Shown here in pieces: positions 2,862 through 13,070 of a stretch of 13,168 nucleotides of DNA. Origin of the DNA: an uncultured Ruminococcus sp. (lineage in GTDB: Bacteria > Bacillota > Clostridia > Oscillospirales > Ruminococcaceae); NCBI GenBank assembly GCA_900553675.1, contig USEH01000044.1, positions 1-13,168 of the forward strand, in the 5' to 3' direction. Below the pieces are notes generated by a model. The model ran no database searches and had not been told where the DNA came from. It worked only from the letters and a program-made list of their open reading frames with translations. Positions within the stretch are counted from its first letter, which is position 1, and the number at the start of each line of letters is the position of its first letter. The position numbers and the translations under genes were made by a program.

Positions 2862-4895
2862 ATGAGCCTTGACGACAGCGTTATGTATTTAAAGGGAGTA
2901 GGTCCCAAGCGCGCGGAGCTTTTAAAAAAGCTTGGAATTGAAACGGTCAGGCAGCTTATATATCACATTCCAAGGAGCTATATCGACTTCACCTCGCCCG
3001 TGCCGATAGCCGAAGCCCTGCTTGAAGAGATGAACGTTATAAAGGCAAGGGTATACAAAAAGCGCGCGCCCGACCTTATCCGCAAAAACATGAAGATATT
3101 CCGCGTTATCTGCACCGACGGTGCGAACGATATCACAATAGTTATATACAACTCGCAGTATCTTTACAATTCTTTAAAGGAGGACTGCGACTATATCCTT
3201 TACGGCAAGGTGACAGGCAACCTTATTTCAAAAGAGATGTCCTCGCCGATGATACTTGAAGCTTCAAGCGAGGATAGGATTCTGCCAATCTACCCACTAA
3301 CTGCGGGGATATCCATGGGAATAATGCGCTCCTGCGTTAAAAATGCCCTTGAAAGGCTTACTTCCGGCGATTGCGAGACTCTGCCCCAGAGCGTAAGGGT
3401 AAAGCACAATCTGATTCCGGCGGAGGAGGCTCTGCGAAAAATACATTTTCCTGCCGACTCCTCGGAGATATCCTCGGCGCGAAAGCGGCTTGCCTTCGAC
3501 GAGCTGTTAACCCTGCAATTAGGTATGCTCGCCCTGCGTGAAAGAAGCCGCGAGCTTACATCATATTCGCTATCTCCGAAGTCGCTCTCGCCCTACTACT
3601 CTTCCCTGCCCTTTGAGCTTACCGGAGCGCAGAAAAAAGCGATTGAAGAGTGCTGCGCCGATATGACAATGGGAAGCCCGATGAATCGGCTTATATTAGG
3701 GGATGTCGGTTCGGGAAAGACTGCCGTTGCGGCGGCTTGCTGCTATTTTGCCTATCTCAACGGCTGCCAGTCCTGCCTGATGGCTCCCACCGAGATACTT
3801 GCCGATCAGCATTATGCCACCCTGTGCGGATTTTTAGAGCCGCTGGGGGTTAAAATCGTCCTGCTGAAGGGCTCGATGAGTGCAAAGAAAAAATCTCAGA
3901 TAAAGCAGGCGATTGCATGCGGTGAATACGACATTGCAGTCGGCACCCACGCGCTGATACAGCAGTCCACCGAGTTTAAGAACCTCGCTATTGTCATAAC
4001 CGACGAGCAGCACCGCTTCGGAGTCGCGCAGCGCGACGCACTTGCCAAAAAAAGCGTGAACCCCCACCGCCTTGTAATGAGCGCAACACCGATTCCGCGA
4101 ACGCTTGCGCTGATGATATACGGCGAGCTGGACATTTCGCTTTTGGGCGAGCTTCCAAAGGGGCGGCTTAAAATCGAGACCTATGCCGTAACCGGCAAGC
4201 TCCGCGAGCGTGCATACGGCTTTGTTAAAAAGCAGCTTCAGGCGGGCAATCAGGCATACATTGTCTGCCCCGCGATTGAGGACAGCGAGACCGGCACGCA
4301 GGAGCTTAAAAGCGTTAAAAGCTATGCCAAAACCCTTGGCGAGGGCGCTTTTAAGGGATACCGCATAGAGGTTCTGCACGGTCAGCTTCCGGCGGACAAA
4401 AAGGAAAAGATAATGCGCGATTTCAAGGACGGCAAAACCGACATCCTTGTTTCCACAACCGTTATCGAGGTGGGCGTGGACGTTCCGAACGCGACCGTTA
4501 TGTTGATTGAAAACGCCGACCGCTTTGGCTTAAGCCAGCTTCACCAGCTGAGAGGACGAGTGGGGCGGGGAAAATTACAGTCCTACTGCATACTCATCAC
4601 CGACAATGTAAACGAGGAAAGCCGCAAGCGATTAAAGGCTCTTACTGCTACCTCGGACGGCTTTGAGATATCCGAGATGGATTTAAAGCTGCGCGGTCCG
4701 GGCGATTTCTTCGGCGAGGCTCAGCACGGGCTGCCGCGTTTGAAAATCGCGGACATAGCCGCGGACTCCGAGCTGTTAAGCGCGGCGGGAAACGAAGCGA
4801 AGCACCTGCACGAAAGCGGCTTTTTGCAGTCGGATGAGGGCAAGGCTCTTGCGAAAAGAGTTGAGTCTTTGTTTGATGACGGGGTTAAGAGCTGA
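2862..4895 (+). CDS. recG: ATP-dependent DNA helicase RecG
   Basis: This 677-residue protein has a normal length for RecG. RecG is a cytosolic DNA translocase that reverses stalled forks and processes branched repair and recombination intermediates. The start at 2862 follows GGGAGGG about 7 nt upstream. The N-terminus has the helix-hairpin-like LKGVGPKRAELLKKLGI (residues 10-26). Next comes the OB-fold wedge domain (about 45-145) that grips branched DNA. Helicase motifs appear in order: Walker A LGDVGSGKT (279-287), the RecG-type motif II DEQH (381-384) followed by RFG, motif III SATPIPRT (407-414), and motif VI QLRGRVGRG (562-570). The C-terminal GPGDFFGEAQHGLP region is also typical. No frameshift or missing motif is visible. 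It has its own promoter, and a strong terminator follows the stop. Confidence 0.98.
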   Translation: MSLDDSVMYLKGVGPKRAELLKKLGIETVRQLIYHIPRSYIDFTSPVPIAEALLEEMNVIKARVYKKRAPDLIRKNMKIFRVICTDGANDITIVIYNSQYLYNSLKEDCDYILYGKVTGNLISKEMSSPMILEASSEDRILPIYPLTAGISMGIMRSCVKNALERLTSGDCETLPQSVRVKHNLIPAEEALRKIHFPADSSEISSARKRLAFDELLTLQLGMLALRERSRELTSYSLSPKSLSPYYSSLPFELTGAQKKAIEECCADMTMGSPMNRLILGDVGSGKTAVAAACCYFAYLNGCQSCLMAPTEILADQHYATLCGFLEPLGVKIVLLKGSMSAKKKSQIKQAIACGEYDIAVGTHALIQQSTEFKNLAIVITDEQHRFGVAQRDALAKKSVNPHRLVMSATPIPRTLALMIYGELDISLLGELPKGRLKIETYAVTGKLRERAYGFVKKQLQAGNQAYIVCPAIEDSETGTQELKSVKSYAKTLGEGAFKGYRIEVLHGQLPADKKEKIMRDFKDGKTDILVSTTVIEVGVDVPNATVMLIENADRFGLSQLHQLRGRVGRGKLQSYCILITDNVNEESRKRLKALTATSDGFEISEMDLKLRGPGDFFGEAQHGLPRLKIADIAADSELLSAAGNEAKHLHESGFLQSDEGKALAKRVESLFDDGVKS

Positions 4896-4915
4896 AATAT
4901 AGTTGACAAAATAAT

Positions 4916-4950
4916 AAATCCAAGCCATGGTTGGCATGGCTTGGATTTTT
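4916..4950. terminator. Bidirectional rho-independent terminator between recG and glgA
   Basis: The arm AAATCCAAGCCATG (4916-4929) pairs perfectly with CATGGCTTGGATTT (4935-4948) around a 5-nt loop. On the plus strand it is followed by TTTTTAG. On the minus strand it is followed by an AT-rich, T-rich tract (ATTTATTATTTTG). It begins 21 nt after the recG stop and can end transcripts from both convergent units. Confidence 0.9.
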
Positions 4951-4962
4951 AGTATTACACAA

Positions 4963-4995
4963 TTTCAGCGGGAGACGTTATATCCCCCGCTGAAA
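4963..4995 (-). terminator. Second hairpin downstream of glgA
   Basis: The arm TTTCAGCGGG (4963-4972) pairs with CCCGCTGAAA (4986-4995) around a 13-nt loop, only 17 bp after the glgA stop. The minus-strand tail TTGTG is a poor U-tract, so by itself it is a weak terminator. It may instead protect the operon's 3' end or back up the bidirectional hairpin just beyond it. Confidence 0.5.
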
Positions 4996-5011
4996 AACTA
5001 ACCTATATAGC

Positions 5012-6409
5012 TTAAATGTCGCCCGCAAGCTCTCTGTAAAGTCCCAGATAAAGCTCTGCCGAGCGCGCCCAGCTGAAGTCCTCACGCAGGGCATGACTTA
5101 CCAGCTTGCCCCACTGCATACGCTTGTCGTAATACGCTCTTGCTCTTACGGTGGCGTCCAGCATGTCGTGGGCGTTGTAGGTCTTAAAGGTGAAGCCGTT
5201 GCCGCCGGGTCCTCCGCAGTCGACAATGCTGTCCTTTAAGCCGCCGGTTTCTCTTACTATCGGGATGGTGCCGTAGCGCAGGGATACGCTCTGCGAAGGC
5301 ATAAGGAACATATCCGCGCCGGCATAGATTCTGTGAGCCAGATCGGGGATAAAGCCGATTTTAACGCCCACCGCCTGAGGATATCTGTAAGCCATCTCGC
5401 GGAAGAAGTCCTCATACTGCTTTTCGCCCGAGCCGAGGATTACGAACTTATAGCCAATGCGAATCATGTCCTCAAAGACTCTCTTTATAAGGTCAACGCC
5501 CTTGTGCGAAACAAGTCTTGTTACTATTCCCATTACAGGCTCGTCGCCCTCCGGCAGACCCATCTCCTGCAGCAGGCTGCGCTTGCATTCCTTTTTGCCC
5601 GCCTTATCCTCAGCACTGAAATGAGCAGGGATTGCAGGGTCGGTTTCGGGGTTGTAAACGTCCTGATCTATGCCGTTTAAGAAGCCTGTAAGCTTATACT
5701 GCTTGCTCCAGAGAACGGGGTCGAGTCCGTGGGAGAAGTAGGGGTTCAGAATCTCCCAAGCGTAGGTGGGTGAAACGGTGGTTATCTTGTCGGCGGTCTC
5801 GAACGCGCCCTTCATAAAGTTTACGCAGTTGTCGTACTCAACAAGGCTGTGAGCCCAATCCGGCAGACCTAAGATGTCGTTATGAAGCTCCAAGCCGTAT
5901 TTTCCCTGATACTGAATGTTGTGGATGGTGAATACCGTTTTGATATTTCCCAGATCCTTCTGATTCTTATAAAAGACGTTGTAGTATACCGGAACAAGCG
6001 CGGTCTGCCAGTCGTTGCAGTTTAAAATGTCCGGAACAAAGTCGATATGCTTTATCATTTCAAGTATCGCGCGGGAGAAGAAGGTAAAGCGCTCCGCGTC
6101 GTCATAATGACCGTAGATTCCGTTGCGCTTGAAATAGTATTCGTTGTCTAAAAGATAGTAGGTAACTCCGTTTGCAACGCCCTTGAAAACTCCGCAGTAC
6201 TGATTTCTCCAGGCAACCGGAACAAAGAAGTTTGTAATATACTCAAGGCTTTCGCGCAGCTCCCATTTTATTGCGGAATAAAGGGGCATAACCACGCGGC
6301 AATCGTGTCCGGCTTCGTTTAAAGCTCTGGGCAGAGAGCCTGCAACGTCTGCCAATCCGCCGGAGGCTATATAGGGCAGAGCCTCGCTAGCCGCATAAAG
6401 TATTTTCAT
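5012..6409 (-). CDS. glgA: Glycogen synthase GlgA (ADP-glucose type, GT5) lacking the catalytic-glutamate loop
   Basis: This 465-residue protein is the last gene of the glycogen operon. The start at 6409 has AAAGGA about 9 nt upstream. GlgA transfers glucose from ADP-glucose to the non-reducing end of an alpha-1,4-glucan in the cytosol. The GT-B layout is complete. The N-terminal domain has MKILYAASEALPY, GGLADVAGSLP (17-27), VAWRNQYCGVF, NDWQTALVP (132-140) and TIHNIQYQG. The C-terminal domain has LNGIDQDVYNPETDP, VTRLVSHKG (296-304, with Arg298 and Lys303 matching the phosphate-binding Arg and Lys), LAHRIYAGADMFLMPS, RYGTIPIVRETGGL and a FSWARSAELYLGLY tail. Two things are odd. After MPS (370-372) the family-typical RFEPCGLS block, which carries the essential Glu, is absent and the chain continues QSVSLRYG. 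The KTGGL lysine is Ala15. The fold should form, but activity as written is doubtful. Confidence 0.95.
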   Translation of the reverse strand: MKILYAASEALPYIASGGLADVAGSLPRALNEAGHDCRVVMPLYSAIKWELRESLEYITNFFVPVAWRNQYCGVFKGVANGVTYYLLDNEYYFKRNGIYGHYDDAERFTFFSRAILEMIKHIDFVPDILNCNDWQTALVPVYYNVFYKNQKDLGNIKTVFTIHNIQYQGKYGLELHNDILGLPDWAHSLVEYDNCVNFMKGAFETADKITTVSPTYAWEILNPYFSHGLDPVLWSKQYKLTGFLNGIDQDVYNPETDPAIPAHFSAEDKAGKKECKRSLLQEMGLPEGDEPVMGIVTRLVSHKGVDLIKRVFEDMIRIGYKFVILGSGEKQYEDFFREMAYRYPQAVGVKIGFIPDLAHRIYAGADMFLMPSQSVSLRYGTIPIVRETGGLKDSIVDCGGPGGNGFTFKTYNAHDMLDATVRARAYYDKRMQWGKLVSHALREDFSWARSAELYLGLYRELAGDI

Positions 6410-6465: not shown

Positions 6466-7590
6466 TTACAGAACGCGCTTTTTCGAGATGTAAAGCGGGC
6501 TTCCCTCGGCACTTGAAATGCAAAGCTCGTCGCCGATCTTAACGTTTTTATCGGTGATGATGTTTGAAATTTCGGTGGACTTGCCTATTTCGGTGTCCTG
6601 CATAAGAATACAATTCTTAACTACCGCGCCCTTTGCAACCTTTACGCCGCGGAAGAGGATGGAGTTTTCAACAATACCGTTGATAACGCAGCCGTCGGCA
6701 ACAAGTGAATTATTCACCGAGCTGTCAAGACCGTATTTTGAAGGTGCGTCGTCTCTTACCTTGGTGTAAACGGGGCGCTTTTTAAGGATAAGCTTTTCAA
6801 GATTCTCGGCGTTGAGCAAGTCCATATTAGCGTCGTAATAGCTTTCAAGGTCGCAGATTCTTCTGTAGTAGCCGGTGTATTCGTAGGTTCGGATGTTTAA
6901 CTTATCCGCCATTGCCTGCAAAACGTCCTTGCCGAAATCGCACTTTCCTCTGGGAACAAGGTCGTCTACCAAGTCGATAAGCAGCTGCTTTTTAAGGATG
7001 ATAACGCCCAGACCCAAGGTGTAATGACCTGCCTTTGCGGGATTGATTATAACCGAGCTTACTCTGCCGTCGCCAAAAGTTTCAAAGCAGAAGGAGTCTG
7101 CTGTCTCGGTGGCGGTATAATCGCCGGTGACGGTTACGCAGGTGATGTCGGCTCCGCTTTCTATGTGAGCGTCGACGACCTTGGATAAATCCTCGCTGGC
7201 GACAACGTTGCAGTCGCACAAAACGACATAATCGCAGGCAGTTTTTACGATATAGCCAATTGCGCCCTTTATTGCTTCAAGCTTGCCGTTGTAAAGACCG
7301 GTTGTTCTGCCGTAGGGCGGAAGGATGGTAAGTCCGCCGTCGGTACGAGCCAGATCCCACTGTCTGCCGGAGCCTACATGGTCTAACAGCGACTGATAAT
7401 TTGATTTTGTTATGATTCCCACGGTTGTCATTCCCGAATTTACCATCGAGGAAAGCTGGAAGTCAATCAGCCTGAACCTTCCGCCGAAGGGAACCGAACC
7501 CATGGTTCTGTTGGATGAAAGCTCAGGAAGAGATTCATCGTGTGAGTTGGCAAAGATTATGCCCAGAACATTTGACATATTATAGCTCAT
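6466..7590 (-). CDS. glgD: ADP-glucose pyrophosphorylase regulatory subunit GlgD
   Basis: This 374-residue GlgC homologue starts at 7590, with AAGGAGGAG about 10 nt upstream and 19 nt after the glgC stop. An N-terminal nucleotidyltransferase-like domain (to about residue 240) shows PFGGRFRLIDFQLSSMVNSGM, GRQWDLARTDGGLTILPPYG and YVVLCDCNVV. A C-terminal left-handed beta-helix follows (NNSLVADGCVINGIVENSILFRG and onward). The catalytic GGxGxRL loop of true pyrophosphorylases is replaced by IFANSHDESLPELSSNRT, and the SGDH-type Asp region reads LCDCN. This is expected for GlgD, which in Bacillota is known to pair with GlgC and raise or regulate its activity while being inactive alone. Its place directly after glgC fits a GlgC/GlgD heteromer. 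Confidence 0.95.
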   Translation of the reverse strand: MSYNMSNVLGIIFANSHDESLPELSSNRTMGSVPFGGRFRLIDFQLSSMVNSGMTTVGIITKSNYQSLLDHVGSGRQWDLARTDGGLTILPPYGRTTGLYNGKLEAIKGAIGYIVKTACDYVVLCDCNVVASEDLSKVVDAHIESGADITCVTVTGDYTATETADSFCFETFGDGRVSSVIINPAKAGHYTLGLGVIILKKQLLIDLVDDLVPRGKCDFGKDVLQAMADKLNIRTYEYTGYYRRICDLESYYDANMDLLNAENLEKLILKKRPVYTKVRDDAPSKYGLDSSVNNSLVADGCVINGIVENSILFRGVKVAKGAVVKNCILMQDTEIGKSTEISNIITDKNVKIGDELCISSAEGSPLYISKKRVL

Positions 7591-7609: not shown

Positions 7610-8812
7610 TTATATGTCCGCCGAGATTATCTGCTTGGGAGCAACAACCTTTCCGGCTCCTACTGTAACATTGTGTCCGACAACGGCTACTCCCCATTCG
7701 TCCTTATTGGCGATGGTTTCGGGTCTTGCGCCGACTACCGCGCCGGCTTCGATAACGCTGTCCTCGCCAACGATGGAGTACTCAACAACCGCGCCCTTTT
7801 TAACGGTCGCGCCGGGCATGAGGATTGAGTCCATAACAACTGCACCCTCTTCGATGGTTACTCCGCCGGAGATGATTGAAAACTCAACCGAACCGTCGAT
7901 AACGCAGCCGGTGGTTACCATAGAGTTCTGAACGGTAGCCTTTTTGCCGATAAGCTGCGGCGCGCGGCTGTCGTTATTGGAATAGATCTTCCATGCGGGG
8001 TCGTAAAGGTCGAGTGAAACTGTGGGGCTTAAAAGATCCATATTTGCTTCCCAAAGGCTGTCTATGGTTCCAACGTCCTTCCAGTAGCCCTCAAAGCGGT
8101 AGGCATAAAGTCTTTCGTGATTTGCAAGAAGCGCCGGGATGATGTTCTTGCCGAAGTCCTTGGTGGCTTCCTTGTCGTTTTCATTGTCTATAAGATACTT
8201 TTTAAGGGTGGGATATGAGAATATGTAAATACCCATCGAAGCAAGAGTGGATTCGGGAACCTTGGGCTTTTCTACAAACTTGGTTATCTCGCCCTCTTCG
8301 TTGGTGGACATGATTCCAAAGCGGGAAGCCTCTTCATATTCAACGTTGAGAACTGCTATTGTGCAGACCGCGTTCTTTTCCTTGTGGTAGCGGAGCATAT
8401 CCGAATAGTCCATCTTGTAGATATGGTCGCCCGAAAGGATTACAACATACTCGGGGTCGTATCTGTCGATAAACGAAAGATTCTGATAGATGGCGTTTGC
8501 GGTACCCTCGTACCACTGAGCGCCGGAGTTGGACTGATAAGGCGGGAGTATATGAACACCGCCGTGGATTCTGTCTAAGTTCCATGCCTGACCGTTTCCG
8601 ATATAATCGTTCAGGACAAGGGGCTGATACTGAGTTAAAACGCCGACTGTGTCAATACCGGAATTGACGCAGTTTGAAAGAGGAAAATCAATGATTCTAT
8701 ACTTTCCTCCATAGGGTACGGCGGGCTTAGCAACGTTCTTTGTCAAGGCATACAATCTTGAACCCTGACCGCCTGCAAGAAGCATTGCTACACATTCTTT
8801 TTTGTTATACAT
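7610..8812 (-). CDS. glgC: Glucose-1-phosphate adenylyltransferase GlgC (ADP-glucose pyrophosphorylase)
   Basis: This 400-residue enzyme makes ADP-glucose and diphosphate from glucose-1-phosphate and ATP, the committed step of bacterial glycogen synthesis. I chose the ATG at 8812 because AAAGGAAG lies 7 nt upstream and the protein then begins [10 protein letters not shown] like its relatives. The in-frame ATG at 8830 overlaps the glgB stop as ATGA but has no ribosome site. Motifs are the nucleotide-binding AGGQGSRL (13-20), [33 protein letters not shown] (100-108), [10 protein letters not shown] with metal-binding Asp129, KFVEKP, and [12 protein letters not shown]-terminal beta-helix built of hexapeptide-like turns ([17 protein letters not shown] and onward) follows. 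All catalytic features are present. It sits between glgB and its partner glgD. Confidence 0.97.
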
Positions 8813-8826
8813 TAGCGTTCTTCCTT

Positions 8827-10770
8827 TCATTTAACTGACTTTTTGGTTGCTTTTTCTGGCTTATTATTTTCTGTCTGCTTGGGTTTTCTTCCTGTCGGAG
8901 CTTTCTTAACTTTGAAATACATTACCGACATTGCAGGTATATCAATCGCTATCGACTGCTCAAAGCCGTGCATAGGCTCCTTTTCAGCCTTTATCGGAGG
9001 GTTGGCGTAAGGGCTGCCGTCCTTTGAAGAGGAGTTGAACACCTCGGTATAGGTTCCCTTATACGGCACTCCAAAGCGGTAATTTTTGCGTTCCACCGGA
9101 ACAAAGTTGCACACCGCTATTATTTCATGACCCTGATTATCCATTCTGCGGAAGATGATTATGCTTTGAGTGTAATCGTCTGCCGATATCCACTTAAAGC
9201 CCTCCCACGAGTAGTCTTCCTGCCACATCGGGGGGTTATCGAGATAGAATCTGTTAAGATTCTTGACAAATTCCTTGAAATTACGGTGATTCTCAAATTC
9301 ATCAACCAAGAACCATTCAAGACCGGATTCGTAATCCCACTCTCTGAACTGGGCAAATTCTGAACCCATAAACAGCATTTTCTTTCCGGGGTGAGCCATC
9401 ATGTAGCTTAGGAACACCTTATCCTGCGCGAATTTCAGTTCGGTATCACCCGGCATTTTGTTTACAAGCGAGCCTTTTCCGTGAACAACCTCGTCGTGCG
9501 AAATCGGCAGTATGAAATTCTCGGAAAAAGCGTAGAACAGCGAGAAGGTGAGCTGACCGTGATGGTCCTTTCTGAAAAGCGGATCCATCGACATATATTT
9601 CATCATGTCGTTCATCCAGCCCATGTTCCACTTGAAGTTAAAGCCCAGTCCACCGATATCGGTAGGCTTGGTTACGTTGGGCCATGCTGTGGATTCCTCG
9701 GCAATCATTATGGCGTTGGGGATTTTTGCAAAGACCGCTTTGTTGAGCATCTGCAAAAACTCGACCGCTTCAAGGTTTTCATGACCGCCGTTTTTATTGG
9801 GACGCCACTCGCCGCCCTGTCTGTCGTAATCAAGATAGAGCATCGAGGCAACTGCGTCTACACGAAGTCCGTCAACATGGAACTTTTCAAGCCAGTGTAT
9901 AGCGCTGGAAATAAGGAAGGAGCGAACCTCGTTTTTGCCGAAGTCGAACACCCTTGTTCCCCAGCCCTTATGTTCCATTTTTAATGGGTCGGAATACTCG
10001 TAGCAGGGCGAACCGTCGAACTCGTAAAGTCCTGCGCCGTCCTTTGGAAAATGCGCCGGAACCCAGTCTAAAATTACGCCTATTCCAGCCTGATGGAACT
10101 TATCTATCATACTCATAAAGCCTTCGGGTGTGCCGAAGCGGGATGTTGGAGCGAAATATCCCATTACCTGATATCCCCACGAGCCGTCGTAGGGGTACTC
10201 GGTCAGCGGCATGAACTCAACGTGGGTATAGCCCATTTCCTTTATATATGGGATAAGCTCATCAGCCGCCTTTTCGTAGCTGAAAAAGTTGCCGTCGGGG
10301 TATTGCTTCCACGAACCTAAGTTTACCTCGTAGATGTTCATGGGAGCATTATACAGCGGTCTTTGCGTGCGCGAAGCAACCCATTCGCCGTCGTTCCACT
10401 TATAGCCGGATATATCAAATATCTTTGTGCCGGTGGAGGGCTTGGTTTCCATATGCACGCCATATGGGTCCGCCTTCATGCGCTCCGAGCCGTCAAGCCC
10501 TTTAACGCAGTATTTATAGGTTGTAAATTGCTTTATACCCTTTATTTTTGCTTCCCAGATGCCGCCGTAAATCCGCGAGCAGGGGTTTGCGCAAACGCTC
10601 CAGCCGTTGAAATCGCCCGCTACCGAAACGCTTTTTGCATTGGGTGCCCACACCCTGAAAACATATTCGTCCCCCGATATGCAGTGCGCGCCTAAAAAGT
10701 CGCCTGAGCTGTAGTTTGTGCCGGCAAGAAAGCTGTTGATCTGCTGTCTGAGCCAAGTGCTTTCAGACAT
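8827..10770 (-). CDS. glgB: 1,4-alpha-glucan branching enzyme GlgB (GH13)
   Basis: This 647-residue enzyme is the first gene of the operon. It cuts an alpha-1,4 chain and transfers it to an alpha-1,6 position, making glycogen branches. The start at 10770 has AAAGGAAG about 7 nt upstream. A CBM48-type N-terminal domain (about 23-115, with [21 protein letters not shown]) precedes the GH13 barrel. Region I is [10 protein letters not shown] (from Asp235). Region II is DGLRVDAV (Asp305 nucleophile), region III is IAEES (Glu358 acid/base), and region IV is [12 protein letters not shown] (His425, Asp426). The C-terminal beta domain ends in a Lys-rich tail (about 625-647, with [16 protein letters not shown]), probably disordered. 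The length suits the shorter, Bacillota-type GlgB without the extra N-terminal module. Its stop overlaps a possible glgC ATG, consistent with one transcript. Confidence 0.98.
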
Positions 10771-10964: not shown

Positions 10965-13070
10965 TTATTCCTTATCTGAAAGCTTGATTACCAAAATCGT
11001 AATATCGTCGGCAGTTTCCGAAGTCTGAGCCTTGCAGGCAGCCGTTCCGAGCATGGAAGCAAGCGTTTCGGCGTCCGAATCCATCATGTCACATATGCAG
11101 GACGGCTCTATGCCCATAGCACCGTCGGTCATCATAATAACGGTGTCGCCGCTCTTGGCGGAATAGGATGATTTGACAGCCTCGACGCCGTCCATTATCC
11201 CAGCGGGATATCCTCCGCCGGCAACTATCGCCGCACCGTCCGAGCTGATAACAAAGCTTTTGCAGCCGCCGCATTTGTAGAAATCCATAGCTCCGGTTAT
11301 CAGATTTATCCGCATAAGGTCGAGGGTGGCAAAGCTTTCCTCCTCGATACTGCATTTTAAGTACTCCGCCGAAAGGGTTATGGCAGATTCTGGCGGGAAA
11401 CCCGCCGCAATAAGCTCTTTAAGGGTCTGCACAAGTATTTGCGAGCATATCCCCGCTTCCTCGCCGGTTCCCATGCCGTCAGAAACGGCGGCATAGAGAT
11501 ACTGCCCCGCGCTGAACACGCTCATATAGTCGCCGCTCTGCCCGCCTTGACCGCCCTGCTCGCGCGGCTTTTGAAAGCTGCCCGATTCCGCCGTTATGCC
11601 ACCCGAAGGCATAATTTCAAGCCTTGCATAGCCGCCCGCCTCGCTTCTTACAGCTTTGCGATACTGCCTGCCGGTCTGCATTTCTATGGCTTTTACAAGC
11701 CTTTGACCGCTCACCCTTTCGCCGCTCTTAAAATATGCACGCAAAAAGCCCTCCGGCGAGACGTATACACTGTCTACGCCCGACTGCGGAAGCTCCATAC
11801 GGCTTTCTTCGGTGTGAGTTACCGTTTTTGACAGCGCGGATATCATGGAGCTGAACATATCGCGGCGCTTTAAGGCTTCGGCTTCGTTTGCCGATTCAGA
11901 TTTCAGCTTTCTTTCGGCTTCAGCCGCCGAACGGCGCATCTCGTCAAAATGTATGCAGACGTGAGATGGGGCTTCAATGCTGTTTTCGGAATCGTCCGAA
12001 TAGCAGCCTGTATATTTTTCGCAGTTCATGCAAACTCCGGCGTACACCATGTCTCCCACAGACGGACGTTCGGGGGGCTTGACGGCTTCAAGCCGCTGAG
12101 ATAGCCTTTCAAGAGCGCAAGCCATAAACGCTCCGCGACCGTCGGAAAGCTCGCCTGCGGACGGATTCTGCCTTGCAGCCGTGGGTAAGCTTTCAAGCAT
12201 TTTTTCGGGAAGAAGCGCAAACGCGGCGGCTCCTGCTAAGCTGCATATACAGTCGGCAAGCATACCATCATGCAAGGAAAGTGCAAGAATCAAAGAAACG
12301 GCAAGAGCTGTCCATCCCGCAGCAAATATCCTGCTTTTGCGCACCGCCGACGGACATAGTATCACTGCCAAAGCCGCCGCAAGCGCAAAGGCTGAAAGCC
12401 CGCCTGTTCCGAGAACAAATCCCACGCAGGCGAATCCCGAAAAAAGAGCCGATTCCGCCTTGGGCAGATGATACACAGCCGCCGAAGCTATAAATATCAA
12501 CGCCGCTTTTCCGAGACTGAACCCGCCGCAGCCGTATGCGCAGAGAGCACAGACCGAGAGTGTGAGAAGCGTCTGTATCCCCGACGAATCCATCCCCCTG
12601 ACGTCTGATAAGGAGGGAGTTCTGAACACCGAAGTGAAAGCATACACCGCCATCGCGGAGATTATGCAGCCCAGCGTTGCCGGCAGAACGCTTAAAGCCG
12701 CCTGACCTGCCATCACCGCGAAAATGAGTCTTATGGATAGACTGCAAAGCCCCGAGGACAAAGCCGCCACAAGTGGGAATCTGCGCTTGCTTTCGTCTGC
12801 AAACCATAGCCTTACAAGTATCCCGACCGCCGCGGAGGCAAGCATCGCGACAACGCTCGGTTCAAAACCGAAAATCAGCGATGATATCACCGCTCCCGCA
12901 ACGGTCAGAGAGCCGTAAAACGCGGGAAGACATGCGGCAAGCACCGGCAGGAAAGCTCCCTTCTCTCCGAGTATCGCCGCCGGCATAAGAATGGCTCCCG
13001 CCGCGAGACTTATCAGATATTTTGCCGCTGATTTTGATGTGTTTTTTGCAAGTGCTGACGCTGTTTCCAT
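10965..13070 (-). CDS. spoIIE: Stage II sporulation protein E-like membrane PP2C phosphatase
   Basis: This 701-residue protein resembles SpoIIE. In Bacillus, SpoIIE dephosphorylates the anti-anti-sigma factor SpoIIAA to switch on sigma-F in the forespore, and it also acts at the polar division site. Residues about 15-290 are very hydrophobic and hold roughly eight to ten membrane helices. A middle region contains a Cys cluster (CMNCEKYTGC, 347-356, plus Cys372). The C-terminal PP2C/SpoIIE domain (about 510-701) has SGD (512-514), the metal-binding VSDGMGTG (529-536), FATLDL (580-585), MMTDG (646-650) and ADDIT (687-691). The start at 13070 has AAAGGAA about 11 nt upstream, a wide spacing. The protein is shorter than Bacillus SpoIIE (about 830 residues), mostly through a reduced central region. 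No frameshift is seen. It implies a spore-forming host. Confidence 0.9.
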   Translation of the reverse strand: METASALAKNTSKSAAKYLISLAAGAILMPAAILGEKGAFLPVLAACLPAFYGSLTVAGAVISSLIFGFEPSVVAMLASAAVGILVRLWFADESKRRFPLVAALSSGLCSLSIRLIFAVMAGQAALSVLPATLGCIISAMAVYAFTSVFRTPSLSDVRGMDSSGIQTLLTLSVCALCAYGCGGFSLGKAALIFIASAAVYHLPKAESALFSGFACVGFVLGTGGLSAFALAAALAVILCPSAVRKSRIFAAGWTALAVSLILALSLHDGMLADCICSLAGAAAFALLPEKMLESLPTAARQNPSAGELSDGRGAFMACALERLSQRLEAVKPPERPSVGDMVYAGVCMNCEKYTGCYSDDSENSIEAPSHVCIHFDEMRRSAAEAERKLKSESANEAEALKRRDMFSSMISALSKTVTHTEESRMELPQSGVDSVYVSPEGFLRAYFKSGERVSGQRLVKAIEMQTGRQYRKAVRSEAGGYARLEIMPSGGITAESGSFQKPREQGGQGGQSGDYMSVFSAGQYLYAAVSDGMGTGEEAGICSQILVQTLKELIAAGFPPESAITLSAEYLKCSIEEESFATLDLMRINLITGAMDFYKCGGCKSFVISSDGAAIVAGGGYPAGIMDGVEAVKSSYSAKSGDTVIMMTDGAMGIEPSCICDMMDSDAETLASMLGTAACKAQTSETADDITILVIKLSDKE

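Follow-up and report, generated by a model that had tools for sequence, protein, structure and literature searches.

An otherwise intact glycogen synthase gene lacking the EPCGLAQM block in a glg cluster of an uncultured Ruminococcus sp.

The glg cluster and the contig around it

The window analysed here, the whole stretch of 13,168 nucleotides of contig USEH01000044.1 from an uncultured Ruminococcus sp., carries a spoIIE-glgB-glgC-glgD-glgA cluster, of which glgA is the last gene, and a convergent recG (Table 1). This order was found in 16 of the 17 loci examined (of 70), the other one, L064, having glgA at its very edge, and the SpoIIE-type protein keeps its place upstream of glgB in 16 of 17 loci despite an identity of only 24-36%. 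The nearest relatives of the bacterium are uncultured Oscillospiraceae; a literature search for Faeciplasma together with glycogen found no paper.

Table 1. Features of the window. Positions are those of the whole stretch; bit scores are followed by the value against which they were read.
Feature	Position	Strand	Evidence or remark
recG, convergent neighbour, contig-quality control	2862..4895	+	677 aa
Terminator-like hairpin between convergent glgA and recG	4916..4948	both	14-pair stem, consensus scan
glgA, GT5 glycogen synthase without 8 residues	5012..6409	-	open ORF, 465 aa
Join with 24 nt missing (EPCGLAQM in relatives), ambiguous by one base	5287..5288	-	comparison with P0001 and relatives
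TCGCAGAGCG, left edge of the join	5287..5296	-	imperfect copy in relatives ends CAGATGG, 24 nt further on
glgD	6466..7590	-	TIGR02092, 345.3 bits vs 236.6
glgC, glucose-1-phosphate adenylyltransferase	7610..8830	-	NF003670, 592.1 bits vs 470
glgB, branching enzyme	8827..10770	-	NF008967, 879.2 bits vs 577
SpoIIE-like gene	10965-13070		upstream of glgB

The glgA frame stays open throughout its length and contains GADMFLMPSQSVSLRYGTIPIV. In profile searches, the protein scored 490.3 bits with TIGR02095 over its whole length (cut-off 328.45), 282.1 bits with PF08323 (cut-off 22.7) and 38.3 bits with PF00534 (cut-off 26.4). These whole-length family-model matches place it by descent among the GT5 glycogen/starch synthases, and its GT-B fold is like that of solved GlgA. 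An arginine and a lysine of the R300/K305 type have a catalytic role in GT5 glycogen synthases; both are present as R298 and K303, within TRLVSHKG at residues 297-304, and were equated with E. coli R300 and K305 from the alignment. What the protein lacks is the EPCGL donor-glucose loop of an active GT5 synthase. The window glgA is an ordinary GT5 glycogen synthase gene carrying a private lesion.

The other genes served to judge the quality of the contig. Compared with 38 relatives of glgB and 45 of glgC, after one relative of each had been left out for internal stops, neither gene showed a private gap, and glgD had a single private gap column against 30 relatives, inside a loop of variable length. 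Usable relatives were lacking in this test for spoIIE, for recG and for both genes on its far side; the length of recG, checked separately, equals that of 28 relatives at 98-100% identity. Because the glg neighbours have no comparable lesion and the length of recG is unchanged, the contig is not generally poor.

Between recG and glgA there are 116 bp (4896-5011). The scanned region contained three terminator-like sites, against 1.8 expected. Matches were absent from scans of the window with Rfam, at gathering thresholds, and for tRNAs. In all 27 genus genomes with a listed recG and a listed glgA, the two genes are on separate contigs; the entries of a GlgA (P0121) and a RecG (P0220, 93%) each name a contig of 21417 bases, a hint that a sister lineage may be arranged like the window.

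The missing block and its distribution among relatives

At the gap, the window GlgA reads MPSQS-VSLRYG and its nearest relatives read MPSQSEPCGLAQMVSLRYG. Exactly eight residues, EPCGLAQM (24 nt), are absent relative to all 54 near-full-length relatives (tblastn identity of at least 50%) in one alignment and relative to P0001, the nearest GlgA, a protein of 473 aa with a cluster of 51 members. The first-pass annotation had reported that eight residues were gone, including the glutamate equivalent to E377, and both comparisons bear this out. Its reading that the frame and both flanks are otherwise intact likewise agrees with the comparison with P0001, in which 464 of 465 residues are identical and the only differences are the block and E204K. 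Since nothing more than the block and one substitution separates the two proteins, we consider the loss to be private and recent.

Corrections were needed as to which residues are missing and where the join lies. The annotation had given the missing residues as RFEPCGLS, from a PSRFEPCGLSQ motif, and had placed the join between 5294 and 5293; the motif in the nearest relatives is PSQSEPCGLAQM, and the join lies six bases away, where AGC (last base 5288) is followed by GTA (first base 5287). The displacement arose because the motif of other GT5 enzymes had been used. The Q and S that follow MPS in the window protein belong to the left flank, outside the missing block, and the ambiguity of one base exists because the Glu and Val codons both start with G.

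Seven positions of the block (E, P, C, G, L, Q and M) are invariant across the 54 relatives; the other one holds A in 50 relatives and S in four. With a block so nearly invariant, the gap is not chance variation. Two protein searches gave the same picture: the block is present in 173 of the 174 different GlgA proteins listed, a count that covers listed entries, so that rare alleles may exist among the members inside clusters. The sole exception, P0101, has 341 residues and ends before the site. This protein is 96% identical to the window GlgA, and its odd end may reflect either the edge of a contig or a further broken allele in the lineage of the window. The second search focused on residues 352-397, around the join, and would be expected to place any protein with the same deletion at the top; of the 7966 proteins that passed, 120 were listed, and none of these has the deletion. 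This leaves the deletion with no independent second observation, a point against its being real.

At the level of loci from named genomes, 69 of 70 have the block, some with substitutions, and the remaining one, L068, is a fragment covering residues 1-133 only. The block was called at 60 loci by a first pattern and at seven more by a looser one; among these seven is L063, where the block belongs to a second, distant GlgA. The block of L040 sits at a contig end, and that of L046 has one changed residue. In the genus of G001, glgA was found in 30 of 31 genomes, and all 30 have the block. The glgA match of one relative, L102 (G013:C29:277551-278966), contains one TAA inside the matched stretch. 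DNA closer to the window was sought among the 31 genus genomes, where 30 matched with a best identity of 78%, and among 395 family genomes, which overlap the genus set, where 339 matched and the best among the matches listed was 75%, none being closer.

These comparisons bear on a reading in which GlgA naturally works without the loop or is retained in a non-catalytic role. No active relative naturally lacking the block, the counter-example that had been named in advance, was seen among the proteins, loci and genus genomes read, and among these relatives there is no sign of a natural loop-less GlgA family. Added to the absence of a gap-sharing protein from the join-centred search and to the invariance of the block, the window holds a single allele, one substitution from P0001, which gives no sign of time or selection; moreover, predicted folds tend to survive small deletions. 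Such a variant therefore appears very improbable. We regard as equally far-fetched the idea that the strain keeps and expresses GlgA as a protein with an intact fold and no catalysis, acting, say, as a regulatory partner or a glucan-binding one, so that the ADP-glucose and branching provided by glgBCD would serve something besides ordinary glycogen.

Strain-level deletion or assembly artefact

Both readings offered by the first-pass annotation, a private inactivating deletion and an assembly artefact, stand. We judged, rather than computed, a strain-level in-frame deletion inactivating GlgA to be the most likely, with a probability of roughly one half (0.52). The gap is in frame, and the contig is clean elsewhere where it could be checked, with no other multi-residue gap. 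Clean in-frame joins are also not usually invented by graph assemblers, which counts against an artefact.

An assembly or consensus artefact, in which the block is present in the genome and 24 nt were dropped from the contig, for instance when a stretch also found in other species or in a paralogue was wrongly overlapped or gap-filled, is nevertheless a serious contender that we rate nearly as likely as a real deletion. The site can be hard to assemble, as a related MAG is interrupted at precisely this point: in G033, the two contigs over which glgA is split each terminate in the block, with 33 nt of overlap, and a second GlgA from that bin shares 15 nt of it. An artefact would also agree with the absence of the deletion from all other listed proteins and with the presence of the block in the near-identical P0001; the latter supplies the second assembly with the block that had been called for, although it does not come from the same sample. 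Against this, sequence sharing at the block is modest: its identity between species is 0.862, where the gene as a whole averages 0.769, which places it 113th among 1393 windows along the gene, and no more than 22 of the 406 species pairs have an exact 24-mer in common there, compared with 53 elsewhere in the gene.

The block was also considered as the strongest shared stretch of glgA and an assembly hotspot. This proposal was unsupported in 29 glgA genes, other parts of which share more exact words.

If the in-frame deletion is real, one strain would recently have lost 24 nt of glgA. Slippage between imperfect repeats is a possible, weakly supported route. The first-pass annotation had suggested a CCTTCG/CTTTCG pair, which does not flank the join; the actual candidate is TCGCAGAGCG with the stretch ending in CAGATGG. 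In 31 relatives, the ten-base left edge agrees with the copy 24 nt further along at 4-7 of ten positions (mean 6.0), five of the relatives reaching only 4 or 5, and within the gene itself a median of 3.6% of positions do equally well. Support for a repeat-mediated deletion is weak for this reason, and the poor repeat also counts against the deletion being real.

The lost residues make up the turn and the first half of a helix that hold the transferred glucose. The deleted protein would probably still fold roughly as GT-B, with little or no glucose transfer, making the window glgA a putative loss-of-function allele. We infer that the deletion is present in the cell and that GlgA activity is lost.

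Function of the block, consequences and known synthases

By alignment, E375 of P0001 corresponds to E. coli GlgA E377, which is essential for catalysis in that enzyme. We take Cys545 of Arabidopsis SS1 to be the cysteine of EPCGL. Cys545 is said to bind glucose, and changing it lowers activity (PMC4569185). In the CLg1 GBSS structure, Glu, Cys and Gly are described in contact with the donor glucose (PMC6086201); judged from their spacing, we read these three as belonging to EPCGL. According to a review, catalysis in this enzyme group involves one residue each of lysine, arginine and glutamate, which its section on bacterial glycogen synthase does not name (PMC11046441). No paper was found when the literature was searched for Glu-377, E377A or EPCGL.

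Should the deletion be real, the strain would produce ADP-glucose and branching enzyme, but through GlgA probably no glycogen. It would then hold a natural knock-out allele in a lineage mostly without a second GT5 synthase, none having been found in 28 of the 30 genus genomes with glgA, genomes that may be incomplete. The other two, G008 and G033, have a second GT5 synthase at 40% identity. Weak matches of 21-25% identity in G005, G010, G017 and G024 are read as other glycosyltransferases.

The second GlgA of G008 (L108, on contig C25) and of G033 (L063) is about 40% identical to P0001, has a PSRFEPCGLTQ motif and an open frame of 730-747 codons, longer than that of the usual GlgA, and shares its contig with the usual glgA on the opposite strand, whole in G008 and as an end in G033. 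The split glgA of G033 consists of the L040 tail and the L063 end, on contigs C49 and C58, the second of which has the distant GlgA.

As the window shows, a complete-looking glgBCDA cluster can hold a synthase without its donor-binding loop. Domain-based annotation would miss this loss, because TIGR02095, PF08323 and PF00534 still pass; the stricter, curated equivalog NF001898 (cut-off 603 bits) drops under its cut-off for the window GlgA (568.3 bits) while P0001 passes (604.7 bits). The understanding of GlgA itself is unchanged by the window allele.

Compared with known systems, the window GlgA differs from its nearest relative, P0001, which has EPCGLAQM and a Lys at residue 204 where the window protein has Glu, and from GT5 GlgA in general (TIGR02095; E. 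coli 2qzs), which keeps the E377 block for which the window protein has no equivalent. Published glgA deletions in Lactobacillus acidophilus were engineered (PMC4282360). The window GlgA resembles PDB entry 3cop, the E377A mutant of E. coli GlgA, in that the same glutamate is gone; 3cop is, however, a laboratory point mutation, whereas the window GlgA loses eight residues, including a turn and half a helix.
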